From the IMG/VR virus record IMGVR_UViG_3300005096_000069, positions 1-46,249 of that record: a stretch of DNA of 46,249 nucleotides; one strand, given 5' to 3'. Shown here one piece after another: positions 1,661-45,014 of this stretch. Under the pieces are notes generated by a model. It made no database searches and had not been told where the DNA came from. It saw only the letters and a list, made by a program, of their open reading frames with translations. Origin of the DNA: a virus. Position numbers and translations under genes: made by a program. How positions within the stretch are numbered: position 1 is the first letter of the stretch; each line of letters opens with the position of its first letter.

Positions 1661-1692
1661 CCCCACCCTGGGGGGTGACAGGTTGGGACATG

Positions 1693-1713
1693 TCCCACGC
1701 TTCGTGCGTGGGA
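1693..1713. other. Strong hairpin in the leader of the primase operon
   Basis: TCCCACGC and GCGTGGGA form an 8-base-pair stem around a five-base TTCGT loop. It overlaps the right half of the second palindrome, so DNA binding and RNA folding could compete. There is no T-run after it, so it is not a standard terminator. Confidence 0.5.
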
Positions 1714-1810
1714 GTGGGACAAGTGGGTTTTGATGTGTCCCACTTCTGGCTATTCCGTCGCCGTTTCGGAGTCCCCGCCGTATGGTCGTCATTCGCCAAG
1801 GAGGGCCACC

Positions 1811-1858
1811 ATGCAGATCGGAATGGACCGTTTTCGCTCGATCGCGCTGGCCGCATGA
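1811..1858 (+). CDS. 15-residue leader peptide coupled to the primase gene
   Basis: ATG at 1811 follows an excellent ribosome site (AAGGAGGG at 1798-1805). The frame reads MQIGMDRFRSIALAA and stops with TGA at 1856-1858, so its stop overlaps the ATG of the primase gene at 1855 as ATGA. The primase start itself has no good ribosome site, so ribosomes finishing this mini-ORF probably supply its translation. The peptide need not have a function of its own. Translational coupling is an inference from the overlap. Confidence 0.6.
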   Translation: MQIGMDRFRSIALAA

Positions 1859-4794
1859 GCATCCGAGACGACGTGGCGGCGCACGGTCGCCTCGAGGATC
1901 TCATCGAGCACCTGTTCCCGGCGCGGAAGCCGTGGGTTGACGACCAGTCGATCGTCCGATGCCCGACGCCGGGGCATGAAGACTTGAACCCGTCGGCGCA
2001 GGTAGGGCGCAACGGCGCGTGGTCGTGCTACTCGTGCGGCGCGACCGGCGACGTGGTCGGGCTGCTTGGGGAGCGCGCTGGCCTCCAGAGTTTCGCGGAC
2101 ATCGCCGAGCGGATGCGCGCCGATGGGTGGCTGCCTGCCGGCGATGGCACGCCCCGCCCTGCGCCAGTACGCGCGGCTCCGGTAGAGGGAGTGACGTCCG
2201 TGACCACCGACGAGGGTCCGCGGGACGGCTGGTTCATCGAGAGCGACCCGGAGTCCTCTGCCACTTCGGCATGGCCTCCGTCCGATGGTGTGGTCAAGTC
2301 GTGCGGCTGGGTGGTGCGGGCGGGCGAGGTCCATGCGCCCATTTTCGACACTGCTCGCGATGTGTGCGGCATCAAGGTCCGCGGTGGGCGGTATGTCGCT
2401 GCGGACGGGAAGTCTCGCCTACGGGTCAGCCTGGCGCAGACGCGGGGCAAGCGGCGAGAGAAGGGGATGATCGCGACGCCGGGGTTTATTCGGGGGCAGC
2501 GTGGCCGCCTAGTGATCGTCGTCGAGGGCGAATCCGACATGGCCGCGCTTGTCAGCGCGATGATCGACGAGGGCGTGAAGGGCGTCGAGGTGGCGACGGC
2601 GTCGAACGGGGCCAATTCGGGCCTGTGCGGGCAGGAGGCGCTGTTTGTCGGGTGGCGCGTGGCGGTCGTCTATGACGCGGACGTCCCAGGCGTGAAGGGC
2701 GCTCGCAAGGTCGCCAAGATCCTCCGCGCGGTCCCGGTGCCGTGCGTCGCCCTGCCGCTGGGAGCAAACGTCACCGAGAAGGGCGGGCGCGACGTGTCCG
2801 ACTACCTGGCCGGGGGTGGCACGGCTTTCCGTCTCGTTGAGTGCGCCGAGCGTCTGCTGCGCGGAGAGTCCCCCGACGATGACGCGGACGATACCGACGT
2901 CCAGGACGACTGGGCGTCACGTGACCCTCATCCAATCCCAGTGGCCGACGGTATCCAGCGCCTCGCGCTCTCTGACATGGCCCCGGGGATGATCCACCGC
3001 TTCATGGACACGCTCTCCGCGACGCGGCAAGTCCATCGAGAGCAGGTATTCGCCTGCCTTGGCCCGGTCCTTGGCGCGGCGGCAGGCGACGCCTGGGGCA
3101 TCGAGGTCGCAGAATTCGGCGCCGAGCACGTGCCGTACAAGGAGCCATGCCTGGCCCGGTGGGCGATCTTCAGCGCGGGGTCAGGGGGGCGCAAGACCGG
3201 CACAGTGAACGCTGTCTCCGCGCCGATCCGCGAGTGGGAAGAGGAGGCGGCGGCCGTGCACCGCGAGGCCGTGGACGAGTGGGGGGCGCGAAAGGACGTG
3301 CTGAAGGGCCGGTCTAAGGCCCTCGGGGCTCAGATCGCGAGCATCGACGACCGCGCATCTGCGGATTACGAGGACGCGCTGGCTGAGCTCGTCGATGTGA
3401 ACCGCGAGCTGCGCGACGGGGAGCCGGAGCGACTGCGGATCATCGAGGACAACACAACCCCGGAGCAGTTCATGGTGTCGTGGTGCGGGTCGCTGTGCGC
3501 TCGGTCGATCATCGCGCACGAGGGGCGAGGGTTCGCGAATATCGTCCTCGGTGGATATGCAGGCAAGACGCAAGAGGCCATGATGCTGCCGTTCAGCGAC
3601 GGACTGCCTGGCTCGTATGCGCGCCGGTCCGGGGACGTATCGGTATTCTCGAACAGGCTCGTTGCATCCATCCTCCTTGCAGTCCAGCCCGACGTGATGG
3701 AAAAGTGTCTTGGATCCACGTCGATGATGACGTCGGGGTTTCTGGCGCGGTCGGCCCTCGTGTCGATCCCTTCGTACGACAAGCCTCGGCATTTGGTGGC
3801 GCGGGTCGCGATGCAGGAGGACGGGGAGGCGGTGGCGTGGTGGTCACGAGCAATCCGCGGTCTACTCGACTACCAGATACTGGAGATCGAGCATCCGGTC
3901 GGTGACGAGGCCGAGGCGGACAGGGGTTTCGGCGGGGCCGGCGAGTATGGCATCGCCGATAGCGACTCGATCGAGCGGCGGCCGGAGGTCCGGTGGCTGC
4001 GACTGGCGCCCGATGCGTTCCATTTGTATCTCGTGTACGCGCAGCGGTGCGAGAACGTGCGGGCAGCGACGTGCGACGACGGCGACGGGATGTCGGGCAT
4101 GGTGGAGAAGCAGGCGATGGCGTCGCTTCGCATGGCCGCGCTCTACCACCTGGCCGATCTGTCGGTCCGGGGGATGCTCGGGGCGGCCGATCAGCACCCG
4201 ATCACGGCGGACGCGGTCCGATGGGGGCAAGGGGCGCAGGACTGGCTGTCCTGGGAGACGCTGCGGACGATCGACGTCGTTGAGTCGAACAAATCGGAGC
4301 TGGACCTCGCCCGCCGGATCATCCGGTCGATGCAGGCCCGAATGCGGAGTGATCCGGCGGCGTCGTCGATCACGGTGCCGGACGCGATGTCGGTGCGAGA
4401 CGGCGTCGGGGAGTCAGTGACGGAGAACGCCATGCGCCTACTCGTGCGCCTGGGCTACGCGCAGATGTCTGAGGGCGAGTCGCGGCATTGGCGTGAGCGC
4501 ACGGTGGTCTACGTGATGCATCCTCGCCTGTGCGAGTTCGATGTGCCGCTCGCGGAGACGATCGACGACGCTGCTCCAGCGGAGGCGACAGCAGTCGGGG
4601 CGGTCGATCCGCGGGCCAAGCTAAACGCGGACCAGATGAAGATCCTCTTCGGGATGCTCGAGGAGGGGATGACGAAGACCGAGGCCGCTCGACATTTCGG
4701 AGTGTCGCGCAAAACCATCGGGCGCATCTTCCGCCGCAAGCAGGAGGCGGACGCGGCGGAGGCCGCAGAGGCGGCGGTCGCCGATGAATACTAG
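1855..4794 (+). CDS. Phage primase-helicase: CHC2 zinc finger, Toprim, DUF3987 ATPase, C-terminal HTH
   Basis: 979 residues starting MSIRDDVAAH. A CHC2-type primase zinc site is visible (C36-P-T-P-G-H41 and C58-x2-C61). A Toprim fold follows, with EGESD at 224-228, YDAD at 273-276 and GRDVSDYL at 311-318. From about 370 to 760 the sequence matches the DUF3987 helicase-like family, with a Walker A-like AGSGGRKT at 441-448. The last 55 residues hold a resolvase-type helix-turn-helix (KTEAARHFGVSRKTIGRIF). It should prime and unwind phage DNA at replication forks. The start at 1855 is preferred over 1675 because the longer frame runs through the operator array. It heads the rightward replication operon. 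Confidence 0.88.
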   Translation: MSIRDDVAAHGRLEDLIEHLFPARKPWVDDQSIVRCPTPGHEDLNPSAQVGRNGAWSCYSCGATGDVVGLLGERAGLQSFADIAERMRADGWLPAGDGTPRPAPVRAAPVEGVTSVTTDEGPRDGWFIESDPESSATSAWPPSDGVVKSCGWVVRAGEVHAPIFDTARDVCGIKVRGGRYVAADGKSRLRVSLAQTRGKRREKGMIATPGFIRGQRGRLVIVVEGESDMAALVSAMIDEGVKGVEVATASNGANSGLCGQEALFVGWRVAVVYDADVPGVKGARKVAKILRAVPVPCVALPLGANVTEKGGRDVSDYLAGGGTAFRLVECAERLLRGESPDDDADDTDVQDDWASRDPHPIPVADGIQRLALSDMAPGMIHRFMDTLSATRQVHREQVFACLGPVLGAAAGDAWGIEVAEFGAEHVPYKEPCLARWAIFSAGSGGRKTGTVNAVSAPIREWEEEAAAVHREAVDEWGARKDVLKGRSKALGAQIASIDDRASADYEDALAELVDVNRELRDGEPERLRIIEDNTTPEQFMVSWCGSLCARSIIAHEGRGFANIVLGGYAGKTQEAMMLPFSDGLPGSYARRSGDVSVFSNRLVASILLAVQPDVMEKCLGSTSMMTSGFLARSALVSIPSYDKPRHLVARVAMQEDGEAVAWWSRAIRGLLDYQILEIEHPVGDEAEADRGFGGAGEYGIADSDSIERRPEVRWLRLAPDAFHLYLVYAQRCENVRAATCDDGDGMSGMVEKQAMASLRMAALYHLADLSVRGMLGAADQHPITADAVRWGQGAQDWLSWETLRTIDVVESNKSELDLARRIIRSMQARMRSDPAASSITVPDAMSVRDGVGESVTENAMRLLVRLGYAQMSEGESRHWRERTVVYVMHPRLCEFDVPLAETIDDAAPAEATAVGAVDPRAKLNADQMKILFGMLEEGMTKTEAARHFGVSRKTIGRIFRRKQEADAAEAAEAAVADEY

Positions 4795-7347: not shown

Positions 7348-7794
7348 CTACTCCTCGAAGTCCATCCAGAACGTGCAGTTCACCGTGACGCCCGCGGTGA
7401 CGCGGATGCCAAGTCTCCCGCCGCCCATGATCGTCTTCCCCGGGTGCGAGTAGATGACGTCGAACGACCCGCCCTGCGGGTGAACCTCGTGCGACTCGAT
7501 GATGTCGCCGGTCGTCGGCTCAGCCGTGGCGGTGTGCCGCGCCGTGGTCTGGAGCGTCTCGTCATCGGTCTCGTCGATCTTGACCGGCGTCAGAGCCGTC
7601 GTCGTGCCCGCCGTCGTCTGCCGCACAAGCTCCACGAGGACCGGCGCTTCGGTCGCGACGATGCCTGCGAGCGACACGCCCCAGCCCTTGAGCATGACGC
7701 GGTGATTAGCCGCTGCGATGAGCTGCCCGATCGTCTTGGCTGCTGTGCCCGATGCGATGGCGCTCCTGGTGATGCTGCCGTGAATTCCAGCCAT
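7348..7794 (-). CDS. Putative virion structural protein, 148 aa
   Basis: Starts MAGIHGSITRSAIASGTAAK at ATG 7794, right after a TAGGAGGCC ribosome site. The composition is beta-rich, with few charged residues, and ends TFWMDFEE. The stop lies 3 bases before the fibre gene start. It looks like the small fibre or spike accessory proteins often found beside phage adhesins, but I do not recognise a family. Its position between a beta-helix spike and the fibre suggests a place at the tail tip. Confidence 0.7.
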   Translation of the reverse strand: MAGIHGSITRSAIASGTAAKTIGQLIAAANHRVMLKGWGVSLAGIVATEAPVLVELVRQTTAGTTTALTPVKIDETDDETLQTTARHTATAEPTTGDIIESHEVHPQGGSFDVIYSHPGKTIMGGGRLGIRVTAGVTVNCTFWMDFEE

Positions 7795-26970: not shown

Positions 26971-27954
26971 CTACGAGTAGAGCGATCCAGCCGTGTTCGC
27001 GATGAAGTTGCGATGCGGCCGGAACGACGAGAACTGTGCGGGCTCGACCCGCCGGAGGTTCCCGTTGGCGTCCAGCCAGCCCTTGCGCTTTGCCTCGAAC
27101 TTGGTCACAGGTCGCATGGAATGACGACAATTATACCCGTAGGGGGTCGTGTGTGTGCGCCAGATGGCGTCCTCGGTCGGGGCGACGAGCCCGACGGCTG
27201 CCAAGTGGTTCTCGCCGCCGTCCTCCTTCGCTCGCCCCCGGCGTGTGTCGGCGTCGCGTGACCCGATGACCTGGAACCCGAGCATGAACTTCGAGACGCC
27301 CGGCTTGCGCATCTCCTGGAACTCGCCCGCCGTGTACGCGGTCGTCAGGTTGGTCCGGTAGACGGTCTGCGAGTACGCCTTGGACCATCCCGTCATCTCA
27401 GCGATGGCCGCCTTGGCGGTCGGGACCGGTGCGCCCTCGTTGGCGAGCTTGGCGATGAACCTCTGGAGACGGGACGTGACGGCATCGTCCACCGATCGCG
27501 CGGCGGCGAACCCCCAGCGTTCGTACGCCTTGGCGACCGCGATGCCAGTGCGCGCGAGGATCGGGTGGCGCGAGAGGATCGAAGCGACCGCGGAGTCGAA
27601 GCCCACGTCGGGGACCACCGGGAACGCTTCGGACGCGAACGCCGCGACGGTCATGGTGTCCGGCTCCAGATCGTTCAGGGCGGTCCCCGTCTCGACGTCG
27701 GCCATGTCGTCCGCGGTCACGCCCTCGGCCCCGAGGAGCAGGTGAACGCGTCGACGCCCGAGGAGGTCGGACAGGACCATCCCCTCCTCGATGATGCGGG
27801 CGACGTCAGCGAACGCAGCCTCTTGTCCGGTCCCTCGCGCATGAGAGCCCACGAGGCGACCGATCGCTTCGGTCAGCGCGCGGGGGTCTCGACCCCCCAG
27901 AGCGGATAGCTCGGCGTCCACGCGACGTGCGCGGCGCTTGGCCCGCCCCATCAT
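26971..27954 (-). CDS. MuF/SPP1 gp7-like minor head protein
   Basis: 327 residues, starting MMGRAKRRARRVDAELSALG and overlapping the portal gene by 4 bases. The C-terminal part carries the family signature: YRTNLTTAYTAGEFQEM, then GSRDADTRRGR and HLAAVG, ending in PYGYNCRHS. MuF proteins sit inside or on the portal and help head assembly or DNA entry. Position directly after the portal gene is the standard order. No toxin domain is fused, unlike some MuF relatives. Confidence 0.85.
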   Translation of the reverse strand: MMGRAKRRARRVDAELSALGGRDPRALTEAIGRLVGSHARGTGQEAAFADVARIIEEGMVLSDLLGRRRVHLLLGAEGVTADDMADVETGTALNDLEPDTMTVAAFASEAFPVVPDVGFDSAVASILSRHPILARTGIAVAKAYERWGFAAARSVDDAVTSRLQRFIAKLANEGAPVPTAKAAIAEMTGWSKAYSQTVYRTNLTTAYTAGEFQEMRKPGVSKFMLGFQVIGSRDADTRRGRAKEDGGENHLAAVGLVAPTEDAIWRTHTTPYGYNCRHSMRPVTKFEAKRKGWLDANGNLRRVEPAQFSSFRPHRNFIANTAGSLYS

Positions 27955-29354
27955 GCGCCCCCTTCCGGCCCCATCGACGGGATGGACGCCAGCGCGCTCT
28001 GGCCCTCGATGCCCAGATCGGACAACGGATCAACCGGCGGCTCGATGCCCTCGATCACGTCGTCGGAGTCGGTCGGCATCGTCCATCCGAGTCGATCGTA
28101 GACCTCGGACTTCACTAGCGGGATGCCCGCCTGGAGGATCGTCGCAACCTGCGTAGCCGTCTCCGTCGGGTTCGTCGAGTCAACCGAGGTCGCCGTCATG
28201 CGGGGAACGAATGCGTCGGCAAGCCCGAGGTTCGCGATCTCCTTGCGGTTCCAGTACCAGATGGCGCGCATCATCTGGTCCGACAGCGCCTCGTAGAGGA
28301 CCGTTCGGTCATACCCAACCAACGTCTCAGACGTCTCGGCTTCGGTCTCCGCGCGGGCATTCGATCCGACATCGGACCCGCCGCCGGACGGAAGGACCGC
28401 CCCGAGGATCAACTGGGTGATGCCCTCATCGAGGTACCGCAGCCACTCGAAGACCTGGGAGTGCCCCGCGCCGCCTGCCCATAGCACGTCGAGCTCATCC
28501 TCGACGTCCATGGCAAACGATCCGCCCTGGCGCATGTCCTCGAGCTTGGCGAGATATGCGTCGCGCACTTCCTCGTTATCTAGGGGAGAGCTGGAGCTCG
28601 ACTTGATCTTTGCGACGACGATGCCGCGCGCCCACTTCTCGAGCCCCTCCAGTCCCTCGCGGAGAACTACGCCCTTGGCGTAGTGGTAGAAATAGATCGC
28701 CTCGGCCAGCCCGCGGCCATGCGACAACCGAGACTCCTCGTTGTCGTACGAGAAGTGAATGAGCGGCGCGTTGCGGTGGATCGGCGCCCACGTTGCCGAC
28801 TCAAGATCGTGCAGCTCGTAGCGCATCTGGAGCTTCTCGCCCGCGGGTCGCTGATCGTTCCATGACGGAACCGGGCGAATGCGCCGCTTGTCGATGTCCG
28901 ATATGTGGGTCGGCATCCACCAGTTCTGGAGCTTCCCGCCGATCGTCATGGGGACGCGTCGTCCGTTCATGTAGCCCCACGTCTCGCCGAGGAACACTCC
29001 CTTGGCGAGGTGGTACCGGGACTGGGTGAACCCGCGGACGAGGTCGATGATCTCCTCCCCGAGCATGGCGGCATCCTCGTCGATCTTGCGCGGGTTCCGC
29101 TTGCCGGCGACGACCGACCAGTCGCGGCCAGCGACGGAGTGCAGGCGCTGCTCGAACGCGTGCTTGATGACGGCATCGCGCTGGACCTTCTCCCAGTACT
29201 CCGGGTCCTGGGCGAGCGCGTAATCGGGGTCATATACCTCGACGCCGTTCCGGTACGCGACGCCGAGGGCGTGCGCGTAGAGGCGCGAGTTAATCGCGCG
29301 CTGGAACATGAACGAGCCGCTGCCCTCGCCGTTGCCGTCGTTCAATGTGGACAT
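27951..29354 (-). CDS. Portal protein, DUF935/Mu gp29-like
   Basis: 467 residues. The N-terminal third (YDPDYALAQDPEYWEKVQRD, HSVAGRDWSVVAGKR) and the C-terminal core (YLDEGITQLILGAVLPSGGG followed by SNARAETEAETSETLVGYDR) match the DUF935 portal family. Twelve copies should form the DNA entry channel at one capsid vertex. It begins immediately after the terminase gene stop. Confidence 0.87.
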   Translation of the reverse strand: MSTLNDGNGEGSGSFMFQRAINSRLYAHALGVAYRNGVEVYDPDYALAQDPEYWEKVQRDAVIKHAFEQRLHSVAGRDWSVVAGKRNPRKIDEDAAMLGEEIIDLVRGFTQSRYHLAKGVFLGETWGYMNGRRVPMTIGGKLQNWWMPTHISDIDKRRIRPVPSWNDQRPAGEKLQMRYELHDLESATWAPIHRNAPLIHFSYDNEESRLSHGRGLAEAIYFYHYAKGVVLREGLEGLEKWARGIVVAKIKSSSSSPLDNEEVRDAYLAKLEDMRQGGSFAMDVEDELDVLWAGGAGHSQVFEWLRYLDEGITQLILGAVLPSGGGSDVGSNARAETEAETSETLVGYDRTVLYEALSDQMMRAIWYWNRKEIANLGLADAFVPRMTATSVDSTNPTETATQVATILQAGIPLVKSEVYDRLGWTMPTDSDDVIEGIEPPVDPLSDLGIEGQSALASIPSMGPEGGA

Positions 29355-31859
29355 TTACCAGCCTCTCAGTCCGTCTCGGCCGCGTTTCCCGCGATGACCG
29401 CCACCCGGGACGATGCGCCCCAGGATGTCGTCGTGTTCGCGTGCCGCGTTGGTCTTTGGGCTCCCGAGTATCCGCCGCCGCTCCTTGGCGATGAAGTCGA
29501 GGCCCGACGCCAACGCATCAAGCATATCGTCTCGCTTGCCATTGGGGAACGCGCCGGACTCGTCGAGGAACGGAGCGTTCCAATTGGCGCGCACCAGCGA
29601 CATATCCCCAGCCTGGGCGATCGGCGACGCGGTGGACACGATCCGGAGATCCTTGTCGCCGGTCGGGCGGTACTCCTCGCACCGGAACCCCTCGGCCCCA
29701 AGGAGTCGCTCGTATCGCTCGAACTGCGCGATCCCCGCCTGCCCCGGGTCGCGCTGGATGAGGATGGTCACTCCGGGTCCGTCCTGCTTGGCCGTGGCGA
29801 TCACGGTCTGCTCGACGTCGTGAGGACGCATCTGCACGCGAACGATGTCCTCGATGCACACCGTGTCGTCGCGCCAGTCCCGGGCGATCAGAACGCCCGC
29901 CGTAGCGTCTCCGTCAGTCGTGCCAGCGAGATCCCACGACCGGACTCGAAAGCACTCCTTCCGAAAGCACGACTCGACGATGTGGAGCCACTTTCGCTCG
30001 AAGAACCCGCCCTCAAGTGGAGCCGGGCGCTGCTGGTACATCGCAGCCCAGAAGTAACCAGCCATGCCACCCACGCGCTTCGCGATCTTCTTGAGGGCCT
30101 TCATCGGCCACCGTTCCGGCCACAGGGCATCTCCGATGGAGCGCCCTAGTGGGTCCGGGACCTCCTCGCAGATCGCGGGGATGCGGACGATGTCCCACTG
30201 TTCGGCCTCTGGGTCCTCGGCCATCTCCGCTTTCAATCGGCCGATCAGGTCGTCCTCATGCCACCTGGTGTTGTGGACGACGAAGCCCTCGGCCACAAAG
30301 CACTCCGAACCGGCGACTGTGATGTCGTACACGCGCGAGCGCCCCGCGGGCTTTACCTCAGAGATCACGTCAATGCGCGGGGCGTCGATGTCGAACTTAA
30401 GGAGCGTCGAATACGCAGTAGACGTGATCGGTGCCGGGCTATTGGGTGGGGTGTTCGTGCGCGTGGACTGGCATACCTTGCCGGGGCGCACACCACAGAG
30501 CATCGCCACGAGCCTCGCGTCCTCGATGAGCCCGAGACTCCCAGACACGAGGCGCCACGTGTCGTCGTACTTCGGGTCACGCCACCCGTCTGCCTCGCAG
30601 AGCCCCTTGAGGAACGCTCGCTGGGATGCGCGGTCAGACCTGAATATCCAATCTGGAACACGCTTCAACAGAGCCCCCACCCCCGCCGTCAGGCCAAGAC
30701 CCTCCAGTCGACGGCCCGCGCTCGCGCTGTCGACCCGGTAGTAGCCAAAGCGGGTCTCCTTCGGGGTCTTCCCAAGATATCGCTCCATCGAGTCGATAAC
30801 TCGGGCGTTGAGTTCCCCGTGAACGCCCTTAGCGACGCACACGCACCACGCCCTTGACTTGTAGGTCTTGCCGGTCGGCTTGTAGGTCTGGCGCTTCTCC
30901 CACAACGTGACCCATCCGTCTCCCACCATGAAACCAAAGAACCACGCAAAGCCTGGATCGTGCTCCTGCCCACCGATGCGCTCGTTGAGAGTCACGACTC
31001 GGTCGCCGCGACTCAGCTCCGATGCCTTGCGCCACGTGCCGTCCTCCAAGAGGAATGGGTGCCGAGCATTCACCCGCAGAGCCAGCCTCCCCCTGGAGGA
31101 GGACACCTCCAGGATCTCGTCCTCACCAGAGCACCGGCTGGCAGTGACCTCCCTCGGCTCGAATTCCCCGCCTTCGTAGGCGAGGACCGACTCTCCGGCC
31201 TTGATTGCCTCGATGGGGCGCCATGTGCCGTCAGCCATACAGACACGCTCCCCCTCGGCCACGCACATCATGACGACGCAGACGGCCCCCGGCTCGAGGC
31301 GCGTTGCCGCGACGGACTGCCACCATTCCCATTGTTTCTCGCGGATGACCTCCGAATGCGCCTCCTCGGCGTTCTTCACGGGGTCGTCGATGACCATGAG
31401 GCGGAAGCCACGCCCGGTCAACTCGCCGCCGATGCCCGTGCAGAACATCCCGCCACCGGTCGTCAGCTCGATCTCGGTCGACGACTGCTTCGACTTGTCC
31501 ATCTTGAGACCGAGAGCCGGGCCGTGCTCTTTGATGACCGAGCGCACCATGCGCCCCCATCGCGAGGCGAACGTCGCTCCGTACGAGATGACCGTGACCC
31601 ACTCGCCGGGGAACCAATGCAGGAACCAGATCGGCGTCCACTTGGAGACCATCCACGATTTGCCGTGACGCGGCGGGGCCTCGAAGATGATGAACCCGCC
31701 GCCCTCGGCGAACTTCTGCGCGATCCGCCGGCCGATCAACCGGGCCATCGGGTGCCGGATGAACTTCCTGTCGAACGCCGCCGCGGTCCTGTCCGGCGTC
31801 AGGAACTTGAGTGAGTCCTCGACAGCCGCCGCGGTGGTCGCGTCACTTGTCGAGTGCAT
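29355..31859 (-). CDS. terL: Terminase large subunit interrupted by an intein
   Basis: 834 residues as translated, about 502 after protein splicing. Extein features: Walker A APPRHGKS at 61-68, Walker B VIDDP at 156-160, and after the intein TRWHEDDLIGRL, the classic ATPase coupling segment of phage terminases. The C-terminal nuclease half shows RSWDLAGTTDGDAT (catalytic Asp) and later acidic segments. It cuts and pumps DNA into heads through the portal. The start overlaps the small subunit gene by 17 bases. The intein occupies residues 199-530. Confidence 0.93.
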   Translation of the reverse strand: MHSTSDATTAAAVEDSLKFLTPDRTAAAFDRKFIRHPMARLIGRRIAQKFAEGGGFIIFEAPPRHGKSWMVSKWTPIWFLHWFPGEWVTVISYGATFASRWGRMVRSVIKEHGPALGLKMDKSKQSSTEIELTTGGGMFCTGIGGELTGRGFRLMVIDDPVKNAEEAHSEVIREKQWEWWQSVAATRLEPGAVCVVMMCVAEGERVCMADGTWRPIEAIKAGESVLAYEGGEFEPREVTASRCSGEDEILEVSSSRGRLALRVNARHPFLLEDGTWRKASELSRGDRVVTLNERIGGQEHDPGFAWFFGFMVGDGWVTLWEKRQTYKPTGKTYKSRAWCVCVAKGVHGELNARVIDSMERYLGKTPKETRFGYYRVDSASAGRRLEGLGLTAGVGALLKRVPDWIFRSDRASQRAFLKGLCEADGWRDPKYDDTWRLVSGSLGLIEDARLVAMLCGVRPGKVCQSTRTNTPPNSPAPITSTAYSTLLKFDIDAPRIDVISEVKPAGRSRVYDITVAGSECFVAEGFVVHNTRWHEDDLIGRLKAEMAEDPEAEQWDIVRIPAICEEVPDPLGRSIGDALWPERWPMKALKKIAKRVGGMAGYFWAAMYQQRPAPLEGGFFERKWLHIVESCFRKECFRVRSWDLAGTTDGDATAGVLIARDWRDDTVCIEDIVRVQMRPHDVEQTVIATAKQDGPGVTILIQRDPGQAGIAQFERYERLLGAEGFRCEEYRPTGDKDLRIVSTASPIAQAGDMSLVRANWNAPFLDESGAFPNGKRDDMLDALASGLDFIAKERRRILGSPKTNAAREHDDILGRIVPGGGHRGKRGRDGLRGW
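30270..31265 (-). mobile_element. Intein with LAGLIDADG-type endonuclease in terL
   Basis: 332 residues within the terminase. Block A starts at Cys199 (CVAEGERVCMADGTWRPIE). A block B-like region has RVNARHPFLLEDGTWRKASE with His267. Two dodecapeptide endonuclease motifs are FFGFMVGDGWV (about 308) and FLKGLCEADGW (about 416). Blocks F/G read SRVYDITVAGSECFVAEGF and end HN before Thr531 as the first extein residue. All parts for self-splicing and homing look intact. It interrupts a highly conserved ATPase motif, a usual choice for inteins because precise removal is then required. Confidence 0.9.
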
Positions 31860-32421
31860 CGGCCAGATCCAGCGCCTGCGCGAGCAGCGCCGGGTCGGAC
31901 ATGATGCGAGAAGTATCGACCGACTCGGTGGCGGCGTCCTCGGCGGACGGGGCTCCGCCTGGGCCAGGGGACGTCATCACGACGACGTGGCGCTCGGCGG
32001 CGGCTGCCATGTCGGCGAGGGCCTTCACGTCCGTCGCGCGGATCACCGGGGCCTCGACGTCAGGGTCGGACTCATGCCGGTCCTGGGCATCGGATATGTG
32101 CTGGAGAGCCCGTTCCGCGACGCTCTGGGCGGTGGTCGATAGCGACATGTGGCGACGGATAAAGTCCGCGCGCTGAGCCCGCAGATCGTCGAGGACCGTG
32201 ACGGCCGCGGAAGCGTCGAATGCCCGCGCTCGCTCGCGCCACTGGTGCGTCTTCGCCCAGTCCGCCACATGCATCGGGCGAGATCCGGTGACGCGTGCAG
32301 TCTCCGCGATCGACCGCTCGCCCCCGTCCACAGCCTGAGTCAGGTAGTGGATGAAGGCGAGGTGGTGGGGCTCAGGTTCTTCGGGGCGGCGTGCCCACGC
32401 GGGGGCGATGTGGTCGGTCAT
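31843..32421 (-). CDS. Terminase small subunit-like DNA-binding protein
   Basis: 192 residues, starting MTDHIAPAWARRPEEPEPHH. Residues about 35-65 form a helix-turn-helix (RSIAETARVTGSRPMHVADW), followed by a helical oligomerisation region and a flexible acidic C-terminus. Placement directly before terL and overlap with it fit the small terminase subunit that recognises the packaging site. Family assignment is from position and HTH. Confidence 0.72.
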   Translation of the reverse strand: MTDHIAPAWARRPEEPEPHHLAFIHYLTQAVDGGERSIAETARVTGSRPMHVADWAKTHQWRERARAFDASAAVTVLDDLRAQRADFIRRHMSLSTTAQSVAERALQHISDAQDRHESDPDVEAPVIRATDVKALADMAAAAERHVVVMTSPGPGGAPSAEDAATESVDTSRIMSDPALLAQALDLADALDK

Positions 32422-36767: not shown

Positions 36768-37036
36768 CACTCAACTCCGTTCGCGACTTCCCAGTCGGCT
36801 TGCTTCTTGTCCCACCACCCGCCAAGGGCGCGCGGCATGTAGTCATCCCGCCCGAGATCCTCCCGGAGGCGGGGGTCGAGCGGATCTCCCAACGGACTCG
36901 CCGGTGGCGGCGGAGTCGGTGGTCGTCCCCCGGATGGACGGCACGTCGGCGCTACCCTGCGGGGAGGCGATTGACGCACTGTATGGCCGTCGATGTCCGC
37001 GCGCACGACTCGACGGATGCCATCCCCTGACTGCAT
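36767..37036 (-). CDS. Small Pro-rich protein, 89 aa
   Basis: ATG 37036 overlaps the RecT stop (TGATG), and its stop overlaps the ATPase start in the same way, so it is embedded in the recombination operon. The middle is Pro-rich (PPTPPPPASPLGDPLD), and the C-terminus looks folded (YMPRALGGWWDKKQADWEVA). It may act as an adaptor; no family is recognised. Confidence 0.65.
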   Translation of the reverse strand: MQSGDGIRRVVRADIDGHTVRQSPPRRVAPTCRPSGGRPPTPPPPASPLGDPLDPRLREDLGRDDYMPRALGGWWDKKQADWEVANGVE

Positions 37037-37914
37037 CAGTACGCTGGCTGGCCCGCGTCGCCCATTCCGGACGGCACGCTGTCGGGGATGATCTCCCCCG
37101 TCTCCGGGTCGATGCCCTCCCCGACTGGCGTCGCCGGAGGGTCGGGAGCATCCGACACGTCAGCGACGACGTTCGGCGCGTCGGGCATCATGGCGGCTGT
37201 CAGAGCGTCATCCCCGCGCACCGTGTCCGCTGCGCCCGCGAGGGCCAACAATCGTTGGTCGTCGTCGTCCGCCGGGAGCATGTTGCACAGCCGAAGGATC
37301 GCCGTCTTCTTCGCCATCGCGTCGTAGTCTGTCACCCACGGGCCGGACGACGACGCCTTCGACCGCCCACGATAGAAGTCGATGTCATCGCGTGACAGGA
37401 CGACAAACAGCGGCAGCTCCTTGGCGTCCCTCATGTGAGCGACCGCGTACACAGCGATGATGACGCCGCGGTTCGACAGGACGGGCTTGTGCCGGAGGAT
37501 CGGGTCCGCCCCCATCTGATACTCGAACGAGTCGTTCTTGCAGACGATCTGGGCGTCGAGGCGCAGAACGTCGCCGGACCGGCGCGCGACCTTCATCGCT
37601 CCCCGGTAGTCGATGATTGGCGTGATCTCGAGGACGCCCTTGTTCTTGAACGGGACGAGCCAGATGCCGCCGCGCCCGGTTGGTGCGAGGCCGGCCTGCG
37701 CGGAGAACAGGAGCGCCCGCGTGATTGACGCCGGGGAGCACGTCATCAGTAGCGGATTTGTCGTGAACGCCGAGGCGATCATCCGCGTGTACCGCTGGGG
37801 CGTGAGACCCACAGACGGGAGCGTCATCGCCAGCTTCTTCTGGAATGACTCGCTCGCGAGCATCTCTTGATTGCCCTTCGCGATCTGCGCGGGGGTCAGG
37901 TTTGGTTGGGCCAT
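37036..37914 (-). CDS. recT: RecT-family single-strand annealing protein
   Basis: 292 residues, ATG 37914 after AAGGAGGCCA. The core matches RecT: LPSVGLTPQRYTRMIASAF, ALLFSAQAGLAPTGRGG, then ITPIIDYRGAMKVARRSGDV and IIAVYAVAHM. The last 70 residues are acidic and disordered, as in other RecT proteins. It binds ssDNA left by the phage exonuclease and anneals homologous strands. It works with the YqaJ gene at 39180 in the same transcription unit. Confidence 0.93.
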   Translation of the reverse strand: MAQPNLTPAQIAKGNQEMLASESFQKKLAMTLPSVGLTPQRYTRMIASAFTTNPLLMTCSPASITRALLFSAQAGLAPTGRGGIWLVPFKNKGVLEITPIIDYRGAMKVARRSGDVLRLDAQIVCKNDSFEYQMGADPILRHKPVLSNRGVIIAVYAVAHMRDAKELPLFVVLSRDDIDFYRGRSKASSSGPWVTDYDAMAKKTAILRLCNMLPADDDDQRLLALAGAADTVRGDDALTAAMMPDAPNVVADVSDAPDPPATPVGEGIDPETGEIIPDSVPSGMGDAGQPAY

Positions 37915-38625: not shown

Positions 38626-39183
38626 CTAGCTAGCCTCCGGGGCGGGCCTAGCGAACGCATCGGAAACGGCGTCCTCGATCTCGGTGTCGTCGTTGTCCGG
38701 GTTGCCGTGGTCGTCGTCCGGCTCCCCCTCCCCTGCGGCGCTGACCGCGTTCACGTCGGGGTCGAACGATCCGGGCTCGATCGTCCCGCGCTCCTTCTCT
38801 GCGGCGGCGCGAGCGACCTCCTCCACGAGGATGTAGTCGTTCGATATGATGAACTGGCTGAAGGGGGAGCCAGCGAGCCCCCCTCCATCCTTCGAGTACA
38901 GCGACGCCGTGTACGTGGTCGCCCACGATCCATCGCTGGCCATGGCCTTGCCGCCGTGGAACGATACGTCCTCGCGGATCTCGGGCGTGATCGCCTCGCG
39001 CAGCCAGTCCGAGATCGCCTCGGAGCCGTTCAGTGATCCGTCGGTGTTCATTGTGACGCGGAGACCGTCCACGCGGATGTGGTGCTCGGCCGTCGGTCCG
39101 CAATCGACACCGAGATCCTCAAGCCACTCGATGGCTCGTGTGAACGCTTCAACCTGCGTTCGTGGGGTGAATGTGGTGGTCAT
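38626..39183 (-). CDS. Hypothetical protein in the recombination operon, 185 aa
   Basis: Starts MTTTFTPRTQVEAFTRAIEW; overlaps the YqaJ stop by 4 bases. The N-terminal 130 residues look folded (LGVDCGPTAEHHIRVDGLRV, TTYTASLYSKDGGG). The rest is very acidic and disordered (DDDHGNPDNDDTEIEDAV). Its coupling to the exonuclease gene suggests a partner in recombination, for example an inhibitor or ssDNA-mimic tail, but that is inference. Confidence 0.7.
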   Translation of the reverse strand: MTTTFTPRTQVEAFTRAIEWLEDLGVDCGPTAEHHIRVDGLRVTMNTDGSLNGSEAISDWLREAITPEIREDVSFHGGKAMASDGSWATTYTASLYSKDGGGLAGSPFSQFIISNDYILVEEVARAAAEKERGTIEPGSFDPDVNAVSAAGEGEPDDDHGNPDNDDTEIEDAVSDAFARPAPEAS

Positions 39184-40193
39184 TTGGTCTTCCTCTTGGT
39201 CGGGGCTCGCAGGACCGAGAACGTCGATCCCTTGGTGACGGACGGCTTGCGGGTCTGCTCACGATACGTCCACTTGCGCCCGTCGAGCAGGAGCCCGACC
39301 GGCAGGCCGCCCAGTCGGGCGATCATGCGATTCTCGATGCCCTTGCACTCGGCCGCGTCGTCCTTGATGCGGGACTTGAGCAGCTCGCGGCGGTCGGTGT
39401 CATCCTGCGCGGCCATGTCCAGCGCGACGGGGTCGCCGTCGATGTGCGGGTTCATCGCCTTGAGAGCGTCGCGGCATGCGTCAGACGACGTCGGATCGGG
39501 GGCCCCTCCGCCGTTGAGCCGCGCGTGGAAGTCCTCGAGCGCCTCGCGGTGCAGCGAAAGCCAGCCCTCGTCGCGCTCGATGATGTACCACCGGAAGTCG
39601 TTTCCGCCGAGCAGCACGCCGAGATAGGTCTCCGGCATGTCGCATACGGCCATCCCGTGTTGACACTGAGCGACCACCTCAGGGGGCGGCCCATCGGCCC
39701 ATCGGTCCGCGGACCACTGGCCGACGTTTTTGAACTCGGCGAGACGGCACGGAACCCCACGGTCGTCGATGACGAACCCATCGGGAGAGTGCCCGAGACC
39801 GGGCAACTCCCGGTTGAATGCGATGCTGTCCTTCGTGTGAAGGAGCTGGACGCCCGCCTTCTTCGTGAGGAGGCCGCAGATCGTGGCCTCGATGTAGTTG
39901 CCGACGGTCAGGTGATCGACGAGGTCGTCGGCGCGGTCCTCCTCGACGAGGATGCCCGTCTTCTTCGCCCACGTTTTCAGCAGCGACGAGTACGGGTGAT
40001 CGGTCGTCAACACGGCGGCGTCGGTGCCAGTCGTGATGACGGTTCGGGCCGCGAGCCATCGCTCGCGCGACTCGTACCGGCACAACTCGATCTGGCCGGG
40101 TGTGCGGGTCATGTCGATCCGCTTGATGATGCCCTCGCTGTCGGCGACGGGCTCGACGGGTCTCATGCCCGCGTCTAGGATCATGCCTGCCAT
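39180..40193 (-). CDS. YqaJ-family (lambda-type) recombination exonuclease
   Basis: 337 residues from ATG 40193, with GAAAGGAGACACAC before it. The nuclease core is visible: GHSPDGF (D138), LAEFKNV (E153-x-K155) and QCQHGMAV (Q177 region), then LLGGNDFRWYIIERDEGW, which is characteristic of YqaJ proteins. It should digest dsDNA ends 5' to 3' to make ssDNA for RecT. The C-terminal 90 residues are a helical extension. The longer frame to 40286 lacks a ribosome site. Confidence 0.9.
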   Translation of the reverse strand: MAGMILDAGMRPVEPVADSEGIIKRIDMTRTPGQIELCRYESRERWLAARTVITTGTDAAVLTTDHPYSSLLKTWAKKTGILVEEDRADDLVDHLTVGNYIEATICGLLTKKAGVQLLHTKDSIAFNRELPGLGHSPDGFVIDDRGVPCRLAEFKNVGQWSADRWADGPPPEVVAQCQHGMAVCDMPETYLGVLLGGNDFRWYIIERDEGWLSLHREALEDFHARLNGGGAPDPTSSDACRDALKAMNPHIDGDPVALDMAAQDDTDRRELLKSRIKDDAAECKGIENRMIARLGGLPVGLLLDGRKWTYREQTRKPSVTKGSTFSVLRAPTKRKTK

Positions 40194-40261
40194 GTGTGTC
40201 TCCTTTCGTGGGAGTTCTTGTGCGGTCGCTACGCTACCGTGTGGCGGGGATTGGTTCCATG

Positions 40262-40477
40262 CTATTCCCGGCGCCCGGTCGTCCATATCTCGTCAGGTTC
40301 CCCACCGACTCGGTTGATCGCGATTACGCGCCCCGACTCGAGAAGGACGCCCGCCTCGTCGTGAACGGGGACGCATGCGTCTCGGTGATCGTCCATGTCC
40401 CGACCGGCCTCGATCCAGATCGCGCGGTCCATGTCAGCCATGAAGTCACTCAGTGATCCAAGGTGCTCCGGGACCAT
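40262..40477 (-). CDS. Hypothetical protein, 71 aa
   Basis: Starts MVPEHLGSLSDFMADMDRAI, overlapping the end of the upstream gene by 32 bases; ATG 40441 (MADMDRAIW) after GAGTGACTTC is a likely alternative start. It looks like a small beta protein (DACVPVHDEAGVLLESGRVI). Function unknown. The 68 bases between it and the YqaJ start hold only the exonuclease ribosome site. Confidence 0.55.
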   Translation of the reverse strand: MVPEHLGSLSDFMADMDRAIWIEAGRDMDDHRDACVPVHDEAGVLLESGRVIAINRVGGEPDEIWTTGRRE

Positions 40478-42586: not shown

Positions 42587-42740
42587 GCACCGGACCGTAA
42601 TCGCACCGCGTCGGCCTGTCTAGAGTATTATCGTAATTCTATTGGTGTGCGCGGCGTGCGCGTGGCGTACGATCCCGGCATGAGTGGCGCGCGTCGCGCC
42701 TTCGCGGTCGAGGCCGAGCGGGGCATGGGAGGATGGGAAG
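42587..42740. promoter_or_regulatory. Divergent early promoter region
   Basis: The 154 bases between the HTH gene and the helicase-methylase gene contain the only AT-rich patch nearby (AGAGTATTATCGTAATTCTATTGG at about 42622-42645, given here as a position because it exceeds a short motif in part). Related CGTAAT words occur at about 42594 and 42633. The plus-strand gene has its ribosome site GGGAGGATGGGAAG just before ATG 42741. Promoters on both strands are inferred. Confidence 0.5.
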
Positions 42741-45014
42741 ATGAACGAATACGAGGACTTCCTCGCGGGGAAGCGAGCGGTCCACGCTGACGGCGGCGTG
42801 GACATTCCCGAGAGAGCGGTTAACCCGATGCTCTTCGGATTCCAGGCGTACGTCGTGCGGTGGGCGTGCAAGAAGGGTCGGGCGGCACTCTTCGAGGACT
42901 GCGGACTCGGCAAGACGTTCCAGCAAATCGAATGGGCGCGACTGGTGCTCGAGCACGGGTGCGCGCCGATGTCGAAGGCGCTGATCGTCGCCCCGCTCGC
43001 GGTCAACCGGCAGACCGTCCACGAGGGCGCGCGACTCGGGGTCGAGATCCACGACCTTCGCGGCAACTGGGAACCCGCTACTGGTCTGAATATCATCAAC
43101 TATGAGCATATCGACAAGATCGACCCGGCCGACTTCGACGCGGTGGTGCTTGACGAGTCGAGCATACTGAAGAACTACACTGGCAAGACAAAGCGGGCGC
43201 TTCTTTCGATGTTCGCCGCGACGCCGTTCCGCCTCGCCTGCACTGCTACGCCAGCGCCGAACGATCACCTAGAGCTCGGCAACCACGCGGACTTCCTTGG
43301 CGTGATGGCGAGCAACGAGATGATTGCGCGATGGTTCATCAACGACACGATGGCGTCCGGGAACTACAGGCTTAAGGGCCACGCTGCGTCTGACTTCTGG
43401 GACTGGATATGCTCGTGGTCCGTGTGCGTCGATAAGCCGAGCGACCTCGGCTTCAGCGACGAAGGGTACGACCGGCCAACGGTCCACTGGCACGAGGTTG
43501 TAGTCGAAACCGAACCCGAGCCTCCATCAAGCGGCCAGCTCTTCGAGGTAGCTCGCCTGACTGCTACCACGCTCCATCGTGAGATGCGCTCGTCCGCTTC
43601 GGCTCGCGCTGCTGAGGCAGCGCGCATCATCGAGAGCGACCCGCGCGCGGCCTGGATCGTATGGTGCAACACGAACTACGAGGCAGATGCGCTCAAGGAG
43701 GCAATCGGTGGAGCTACCGAGGTGCGCGGCTCGGAGAGTGTATCGAAGAAAGAGGCCGCTCTGGAGGCGTTCACGAACGGCGAGGTCATGCGCCTCGTCA
43801 CGAAGCCGTCCATCGCTGGGCTCGGCCTTAACTGGCAACACTGCCACAACGTAATCGTGGCCGGATTGTCGTACTCGATGGAGCAGCTCTACCAGGCGAT
43901 TAAGCGCACCGACCGCTTCGGCCAGGAGAGCGAGGTCCATGTTTACATCTTGCGATCGAACGCTGAGGGCGACGTGCTCGCGGCCATTCGTCGCAAGCTC
44001 GCAGACTTTGAGGGGATGAAGCGCGCCATGACGAAATCCATGAGAGCCAAGCAACTGAGCGAGCGCGAGGATGACTTGCGCCGGGTATCTCGGCGTGTGT
44101 TCGCGGAAACTGATAGCTATAAGCTGTGGCATGGTGACTCGTGCGAGGTGATGCCAGGGATCGAGAGCGACTCGGTGGGGCTGTCCGTGTTTTCCCCGCC
44201 GTTCTCGAATCTCTACATCTACAGCGATGCCGAGCAAGACCTCGGGAACAGCGCGAACCACTCGGAGTTCTTCGAGCACTTCCGGTTTATCGTCCGCGAC
44301 CTCATGCGGATCACGATCCCTGGTCGCGTCGCCGCTGTCCACTGCAAGGATCTCCCCGCGTACATGGGCCGCGACGCCTACGCTGGGCTGATCGACTTCC
44401 CTGGCGAGTGCATCCGTCTATTCCAGGACGAAGGGTGGAGGTTCCATTCGCGAGTCACGATCTGGAAAGACCCCGTCATCGAGATGCAGCGAACGAAGAA
44501 TCACGGATTGCTCTACAAGCAGCTCCGCAAGGATTCGACGTATTCGCGACAAGGCATGGCCGACTACGTCCTCGTCTTCCGCAAGTGGGAGGGCCGCGAC
44601 GACGCTGACGGATTCCCTGACCCGGTATCGCACACGCGCGACGAGTTCCCGCTCGACCAGTGGCAAGAGTGGGCATCCCCTGTGTGGAACACGGTGCGGC
44701 AGACGAATATCCTGCGCGACTACAGGCAGGGAAAGACGCCGGACGATGAGCGCCATATCTGCCCGCTGCAGCTCGACGTCATTGAGCGCGCGGTAGGTCT
44801 ATGGAGTAACCCCGGCGACCTCGTATTCTCTCCATTCACGGGCATCGGCTCGGAGGGCTATCAGTCGATCTTGATGGGCCGCAAGTTCCTCGGGGTGGAG
44901 CTCAAGGAGAGCTACTGCGCTGTCGCCGCAAAGAACCTCGAGCACGCGATGCGCGAGGCGAACGTGCCAACGCTCTTTGACGGGATGGCGGCTCCCGTCG
45001 AGGCCACCGAATGA
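42741..45014 (+). CDS. SNF2-type helicase fused to DNA methyltransferase
   Basis: 757 residues from ATG 42741. The N-terminal helicase has GLGKT at 55-59, LDES at 137-140, TATPAPND at 168-175 and QAIKRTDRFGQ at 385-395, the last typical of SNF2 proteins. From about 455 a methyltransferase follows: WHGDSCEVMP, the catalytic SPPF at 485-488, and a C-terminal SAM-binding FTGIGSEG near 699 (motif IV before motif I, beta-class order). SPPF suggests N4-cytosine or N6-adenine methylation. Such fusions could track on DNA and methylate it, perhaps against host restriction. No partner nuclease is adjacent. Confidence 0.88.
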   Translation: MNEYEDFLAGKRAVHADGGVDIPERAVNPMLFGFQAYVVRWACKKGRAALFEDCGLGKTFQQIEWARLVLEHGCAPMSKALIVAPLAVNRQTVHEGARLGVEIHDLRGNWEPATGLNIINYEHIDKIDPADFDAVVLDESSILKNYTGKTKRALLSMFAATPFRLACTATPAPNDHLELGNHADFLGVMASNEMIARWFINDTMASGNYRLKGHAASDFWDWICSWSVCVDKPSDLGFSDEGYDRPTVHWHEVVVETEPEPPSSGQLFEVARLTATTLHREMRSSASARAAEAARIIESDPRAAWIVWCNTNYEADALKEAIGGATEVRGSESVSKKEAALEAFTNGEVMRLVTKPSIAGLGLNWQHCHNVIVAGLSYSMEQLYQAIKRTDRFGQESEVHVYILRSNAEGDVLAAIRRKLADFEGMKRAMTKSMRAKQLSEREDDLRRVSRRVFAETDSYKLWHGDSCEVMPGIESDSVGLSVFSPPFSNLYIYSDAEQDLGNSANHSEFFEHFRFIVRDLMRITIPGRVAAVHCKDLPAYMGRDAYAGLIDFPGECIRLFQDEGWRFHSRVTIWKDPVIEMQRTKNHGLLYKQLRKDSTYSRQGMADYVLVFRKWEGRDDADGFPDPVSHTRDEFPLDQWQEWASPVWNTVRQTNILRDYRQGKTPDDERHICPLQLDVIERAVGLWSNPGDLVFSPFTGIGSEGYQSILMGRKFLGVELKESYCAVAAKNLEHAMREANVPTLFDGMAAPVEATE

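Follow-up and report, generated by a model that had tools for sequence, protein, structure and literature searches.

The large terminase subunit (TerL) of a virus recovered in IMG/VR carries a 332-residue insert next to one of its ATPase motifs, which raises the questions of what this insert is, whether it may still be mobile, and whether it could regulate DNA packaging. The window analyzed is the whole 46,249-base sequence of record IMGVR_UViG_3300005096_000069, which has a GC content of 66%.

The terminase gene and its insert

The packaging and head module is encoded on the minus strand of the window. The terL gene (29355-31859) encodes a precursor of 834 amino acids, of which 332 form the insert, and it is recognized by PHROG 38 (1e-73), Terminase_6N, and Terminase_6C. 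It is flanked by the genes for the small terminase subunit (31843-32421; PHROG 6299) and the portal protein (27951-29354; PHROG 113), and a head protein (26971-27954) belongs to the same module. TerL has both Walker motifs (A and B) as well as those of an RNase H-like nuclease. From the sequence and terminase alignments, Walker A (APPRHGKS, 31656-31679) and Walker B (LMVIDDP, 31380-31400) are located in the N-extein (31266-31859), which ends in VVMM, and the C-extein (29355-30269) contains the RNase H-like nuclease domain (profiles PF17289 and TIGR01630). Elsewhere, the window encodes a RecT and YqaJ recombination pair (37036-37914 and 39180-40286, minus strand), an SNF2 helicase fused to an N6-N4 DNA methylase (42684-45014, plus strand), and a DUF3987 protein with a match to a primase-type zinc finger (1675-4794, plus strand).

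The insert comprises TerL residues 199 to 530 (30270-31265, minus strand), running from C-VAEGERV to VVH-N immediately before Thr531 of TRWHEDDL. These limits are exactly those given in an earlier sequence-only reading of this DNA, which had called an intein from Cys199 to the His-Asn preceding Thr531. Splicing blocks A, B, C, E, F, and G were all found. Block A (CVAEGERVCMADG, 31227-31265), located by the PDB match and the alignment of inteins at the same site, holds the Cys1 nucleophile, and block B (ending in NARHPFLL, 31047-31118) holds the catalytic His69, which is invariant in 11 of 11 same-site LAGLIDADG inteins. Block F (RSRVYDITVAGSECFVAE, 30288-30341) and block G (AEGFVVHN, 30270-30293) were placed by profile and alignment, the latter supplying His331-Asn332. 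Cys1, His69, His331-Asn332, and the Thr at position +1 are the residues of a class 1 intein. The common form of block B in inteins is T-x-x-H; the window intein has N-x-x-H, and this Asn is usual among the same-site inteins.

Intein profiles match both ends of the insert, which correspond to the two splicing halves. The match to intein_Cterm (TIGR01443, 3.7e-6) exceeds the family cutoff, and that to Intein_splicing (PF14890, 3.5e-7) reaches 30.6 bits, below the cutoff of 35.8. The top PDB sequence match is the Mtu RecA intein (1.6e-7). Between the splicing halves lies a LAGLIDADG homing-endonuclease domain (30396-30956, approximate limits), identified by profile, alignment, and modeled fold. 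The LAGLIDADG_3 match obtained for the window intein alone is weak (0.073), and the assignment is carried by its relatives and by the fold. The same-site alignment places dodecapeptide 1 (PGFAWFFGFMVGDGW) at 30912-30956 and dodecapeptide 2 (SQRAFLKGLCEADGW) at 30582-30626. Their cores, GFMVGDG (D116) and LKGLCEADG (D226), keep an Asp that is invariant across the 11 aligned same-site LAGLIDADG inteins, in agreement with the two acidic motifs noted in the sequence-only reading.

With 11 same-site sequences as input, AlphaFold modeled the insert with a mean pLDDT of 91.4 and a pTM of 0.86. The best fold matches of this model in the PDB are whole LAGLIDADG inteins, namely, TliVMA (4.6e-17), PI-PfuI (6e-14), and PI-SceI (2e-13). 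Both the profile matches and the modeled fold correspond to a Hint splicing domain, and the endonuclease has two acidic dodecapeptides and the fold of intein-borne LAGLIDADG enzymes. As judged from sequence and model, these data confirm the insert as a class 1 homing intein with an apparently intact, in-frame, two-motif LAGLIDADG endonuclease. A self-splicing group I or group II intron was also considered and was rejected, given that no Rfam match was found in the window and that the host frame is open throughout.

Insertion site and intein-free relatives

The insert lies between VVMM and TRWHEDDL (30246-30269), the ATPase coupling motif, directly 5' of the codon for the +1 Thr. TRWHEDDL itself is therefore left whole, and not split as had been proposed from the sequence. 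When VVMM and TRWHEDDL are joined in the alignment, they form the intact motif seen in intein-free relatives. Searching IMG/VR with the window intein alone returned no relatives and searching with the single TerL returned four distant ones; for this reason, further relatives were sought by an alignment-based search and with a DNA-level degenerate pattern encoding HNTRWHx(D/E)D. Among the 91 TerL relatives that have both flanks, 79 lack the insert, and 12 carry 774 to 909 bp at exactly the same point. The intein-free alleles anticipated by the sequence-only reading hence exist, so the 332 residues are not an ordinary domain shared by these terminases. An extra terminase domain that is not an intein would explain the open reading frame and nothing else; the exact absence of the insert from 79 relatives, the intein profiles, the Hint and LAGLIDADG fold, and the scattered distribution leave this explanation with a negligible probability.

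The coupling-motif site has been described as TerL6-f in cluster B3/B4 mycobacteriophages, and when placed in a reporter, the TerL6-f intein of Chandler gp6 spliced readily to give ligated extein (Kelley et al. 2016; PMC5050341). The window intein belongs to this allele: it is inserted in the coupling motif of a TerL with Terminase_6 domains and aligns with the intein of AlanGrant and others. It is a selfish element of a known type at a site that was already known.

Terminase inteins at other positions were also encountered. The TerL of the jumbo Brevundimonas phage Bambus has an intein-like insert that ends in HN-S in the P-loop region, and it was rejected as a same-site member because the alignment places it at a different site. 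The terminase intein of Corynebacterium phage Stickynote was likewise set aside, its site being apparently different and its terminase aligning poorly with the family of the window TerL. The N-exteins of L166, L186, and L221 contain a second intein that ends just before Walker B (HN-C followed by LIDD/IIDD-type sequence), which indicates that some terminases carry two inteins.

Distribution of same-site inteins and evidence for horizontal movement

Inteins at the same site were collected by scanning IMG/VR and GTDB genomes with the degenerate DNA pattern HN-TRWHx(D/E)D and adding the loci found earlier. At least 103 were obtained. Removal of near copies left 98 representatives among the matches listed, of which 79 contain a hidden endonuclease VII open reading frame (ORF), 11 (the window included) an in-frame LAGLIDADG endonuclease, and 8 are mini-inteins. 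Sequences were picked for an open frame before HN, and the lack of stops in the intein frame reported below results partly from that selection. The sequences dropped were mostly contig edges with open frames, the exceptions being L042 and L120, with a frame break, and L172, which is decayed. Of the 12 loci that came from phage and TerL searches and were not picked in this way, 11 are open. In L042 and L120, an indel that may be an assembly error or real interrupts the intein/terminase frame, and the hidden endonuclease ORF is intact or nearly so.

In the tree of intein splicing domains, the window falls within a starred set of 18 rows that holds 10 of the 11 LAGLIDADG inteins. A single LAGLIDADG clade is not rejected (AU P value of 0.47), and the label needs 4 changes versus 10.6 in shuffles. 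This tree is short (147 columns, with many open forks) and was used only for contrast with the terminase tree. By contrast, the 9 rows with this label require 8 changes in the extein tree, and starred branches force at least 6 of these. The window is placed inside a starred set of 27 rows, 25 of which are intein free. No recent empty-site allele was seen in the extein-tree sample, where the closest intein-free terminase is approximately 45% identical to that of the window. Inteins that are clustered in their own tree and scattered in that of the terminases point to horizontal movement, and the window intein, in a terminase whose nearest relatives are intein free, shows this signature of horizontal acquisition of the homing type.

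Proposed function of the window intein

The window intein is very probably a bifunctional class 1 LAGLIDADG intein, predicted from sequence and model to splice itself out of TerL, the released part homing between phages. It would be translated as part of TerL, fold, and be excised by the standard Cys1/Thr+1/Asn route, which would join VVMM to TRWHEDDL in cis and give a functional packaging ATPase. The freed intein would then act as a homing endonuclease that recognizes, at the coupling motif, terminase alleles lacking the insert; break repair would spread the element between phages. Conservation of the site and its intolerance of imprecise loss may explain why it is favored, and the phage would derive no demonstrable gain from its intein. 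We infer splicing, DNA cleavage, and homing for the window copy; the last of these, as an ongoing activity, is plausible given the conserved catalytic residues, the patchy distribution, and the incongruence of the trees. A decayed same-site LAGLIDADG intein, with a premature stop and a change from GDG to GDS in motif 1, is present on the minus strand of another locus, L172, where it lies upstream of the pattern match (7730-7756). Its decay shows that loss happens, which makes the intactness of the window endonuclease informative.

Such loss is also the basis for supposing that the window intein is a splicing-only remnant, its endonuclease inactive and the element persisting because precise loss is rare. 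Comparable states do occur at this site, in L172 and in at least eight representative mini-inteins. The window copy, however, retains its reading frame, both catalytic Asp residues, and the conserved endonuclease residues, and its confident model resembles whole homing inteins, so that we consider a remnant conceivable though unlikely. The sequence-only reading had favored a different role, in which splicing is needed before packaging and the intein serves as a post-translational brake on late genes. The position of the insert supports the first part of this proposal, since an unspliced TerL, interrupted at its ATPase coupling motif, should be inactive. The second part calls for slow or conditional splicing that postpones active TerL until late infection, and it is unsupported because the published intein at the same TerL6-f site spliced readily (PMC5050341). 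Most TerL relatives (79 of 91) are moreover intein free, and no conserved feature pointing specifically to regulation emerged; a brake is thus highly improbable, and a bifunctional homing intein remains our preferred reading.

Probable hidden endonuclease VII genes at the same site

The window intein is itself of a familiar type, and the surprising part lies in its relatives. In all 12 insert-bearing relatives of the 91-TerL comparison, nothing recognizable is encoded in frame in the central part of the intein. The same pattern, a featureless in-frame middle with endonuclease VII in frame +2, is present in 79 of the 98 representatives among the matches listed; in these 79, the endonuclease ORF is always at frame offset +2 and never at +1. 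The endonuclease VII family PF02945 matches the five hidden ORFs tested with E values of 2.8e-18 to 4e-20, or 6e-18. Examples are L018:4726-5256, L056:1871-2356, L074:3741-4268, L010:957-1475, and L123:2032-2634, with a further 74 listed. Four of the hidden-gene inteins come from isolated phages whose laboratory hosts are named, the Gordonia phages Rofo and Angelicage, Mycolicibacterium phi1_186018, and Mycobacterium phage AlanGrant (L007, L010, L011, and L013). A hidden ORF was rejected for the window intein, since the two alternative frames of its strand contain 7 and 9 stops. The frame with 9 stops is offset +2, where no endonuclease VII motif was found, and the window intein differs in this from the same-site majority.

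The codon overlapping the conserved Trp that follows block B is a potential start in 79 of 79 cases among the matches listed (ATG in 63 and GTG in 16), with a background frequency of A at that overlapping third position of 22%. A Shine-Dalgarno-like sequence precedes the hidden start in 39 of the 79 listed versus a background of 7% per 13-mer. Differences between sequences at the three endonuclease codon positions amount to 0.34, 0.30, and 0.59, a third-position type of variation which indicates that, of the two, it is the hidden frame that bears the amino acid constraint; its third position is the second position of the intein frame. Over the overlap, the intein frame has 0 stops versus approximately 125 expected with random synonymous codons, a difference to which the selection for open frames contributes, and the remaining third frame has 870. 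For the in-frame L018 intein, AlphaFold predicts a confident Hint domain and gives pLDDT values below 50 at residues 99 to 225, the overlapped stretch, so that, in the model, the in-frame middle of hidden-gene inteins looks like disordered filler.

Taken together, these sequence patterns make it probable that two homing strategies occupy one terminase position. A minority would use an in-frame LAGLIDADG endonuclease, and the majority a nested, out-of-frame endonuclease VII with an ATG or GTG start overlapping the Trp codon, the intein frame being merely kept open and the endonuclease being produced independently of splicing. The literature searched contains no account of an out-of-frame endonuclease gene within a genuine intein; it included few subscription papers, where a prior description may exist. 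The closest report is the ShiLan insertion, a hidden HNH-type endonuclease that is non-splicing and has no splicing domain (PMC11855218).

Comparison with known inteins

The TerL6-f inteins of cluster B3/B4 mycobacteriophages (Chandler gp6, AlanGrant) share with the window intein the terminase family, the coupling-motif site, the class 1 blocks, and the +1 Thr. In those of Rofo, Angelicage, AlanGrant, and phi1_186018, filler occupies the intein frame and the endonuclease VII ORF lies in a different one, whereas the LAGLIDADG domain of the window intein is read in frame. The ShiLan domain resembles only the same-site relatives of the window intein, in its out-of-frame endonuclease; it lacks a splicing domain, and the window intein lacks a hidden ORF of the ShiLan kind. 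The TerL1-b and TerL1-c inteins (BAKA gp6 and Bethlehem gp10) have been demonstrated to splice and cut (PMC5050341). They too are terminase inteins with two-motif LAGLIDADG endonucleases but belong to another terminase family and have different insertion sites. PI-PfuI, PI-SceI, and TliVMA have a similar Hint and LAGLIDADG fold over the whole chain, in other host genes and with 13 to 16% identity. The same site and architecture are found in IMG/VR TerLs L113, L099, L128, L136, L129, L147, and others, with whole-intein identities of 29 to 40%, in terminases that are distant kin of that of the window.

The window intein adds a further phage example in which an essential motor carries a homing intein, and its value is in the comparison of two unrelated endonuclease solutions at one site, in-frame fusion and coding in another frame. 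Provided that the hidden genes are expressed, full mobility may extend to TerL inteins seemingly devoid of an endonuclease. Such inteins would then also provide a clean overlapping-coding system, in which sequence constraint acts on one frame and the other must only stay open.

Mini-inteins

In the intein tree, the mini-inteins L119, L127, L133, L173, L189, and L221 nest within the hidden-gene group. L133, the sister of full-length L107, has lost most of the overlapped stretch while keeping the splicing blocks, and L221 retains a fragment of the hidden ORF. The kinship of L133 with L107 and the ORF fragment in L221 suggest that mini-inteins may have arisen through loss of the endonuclease.
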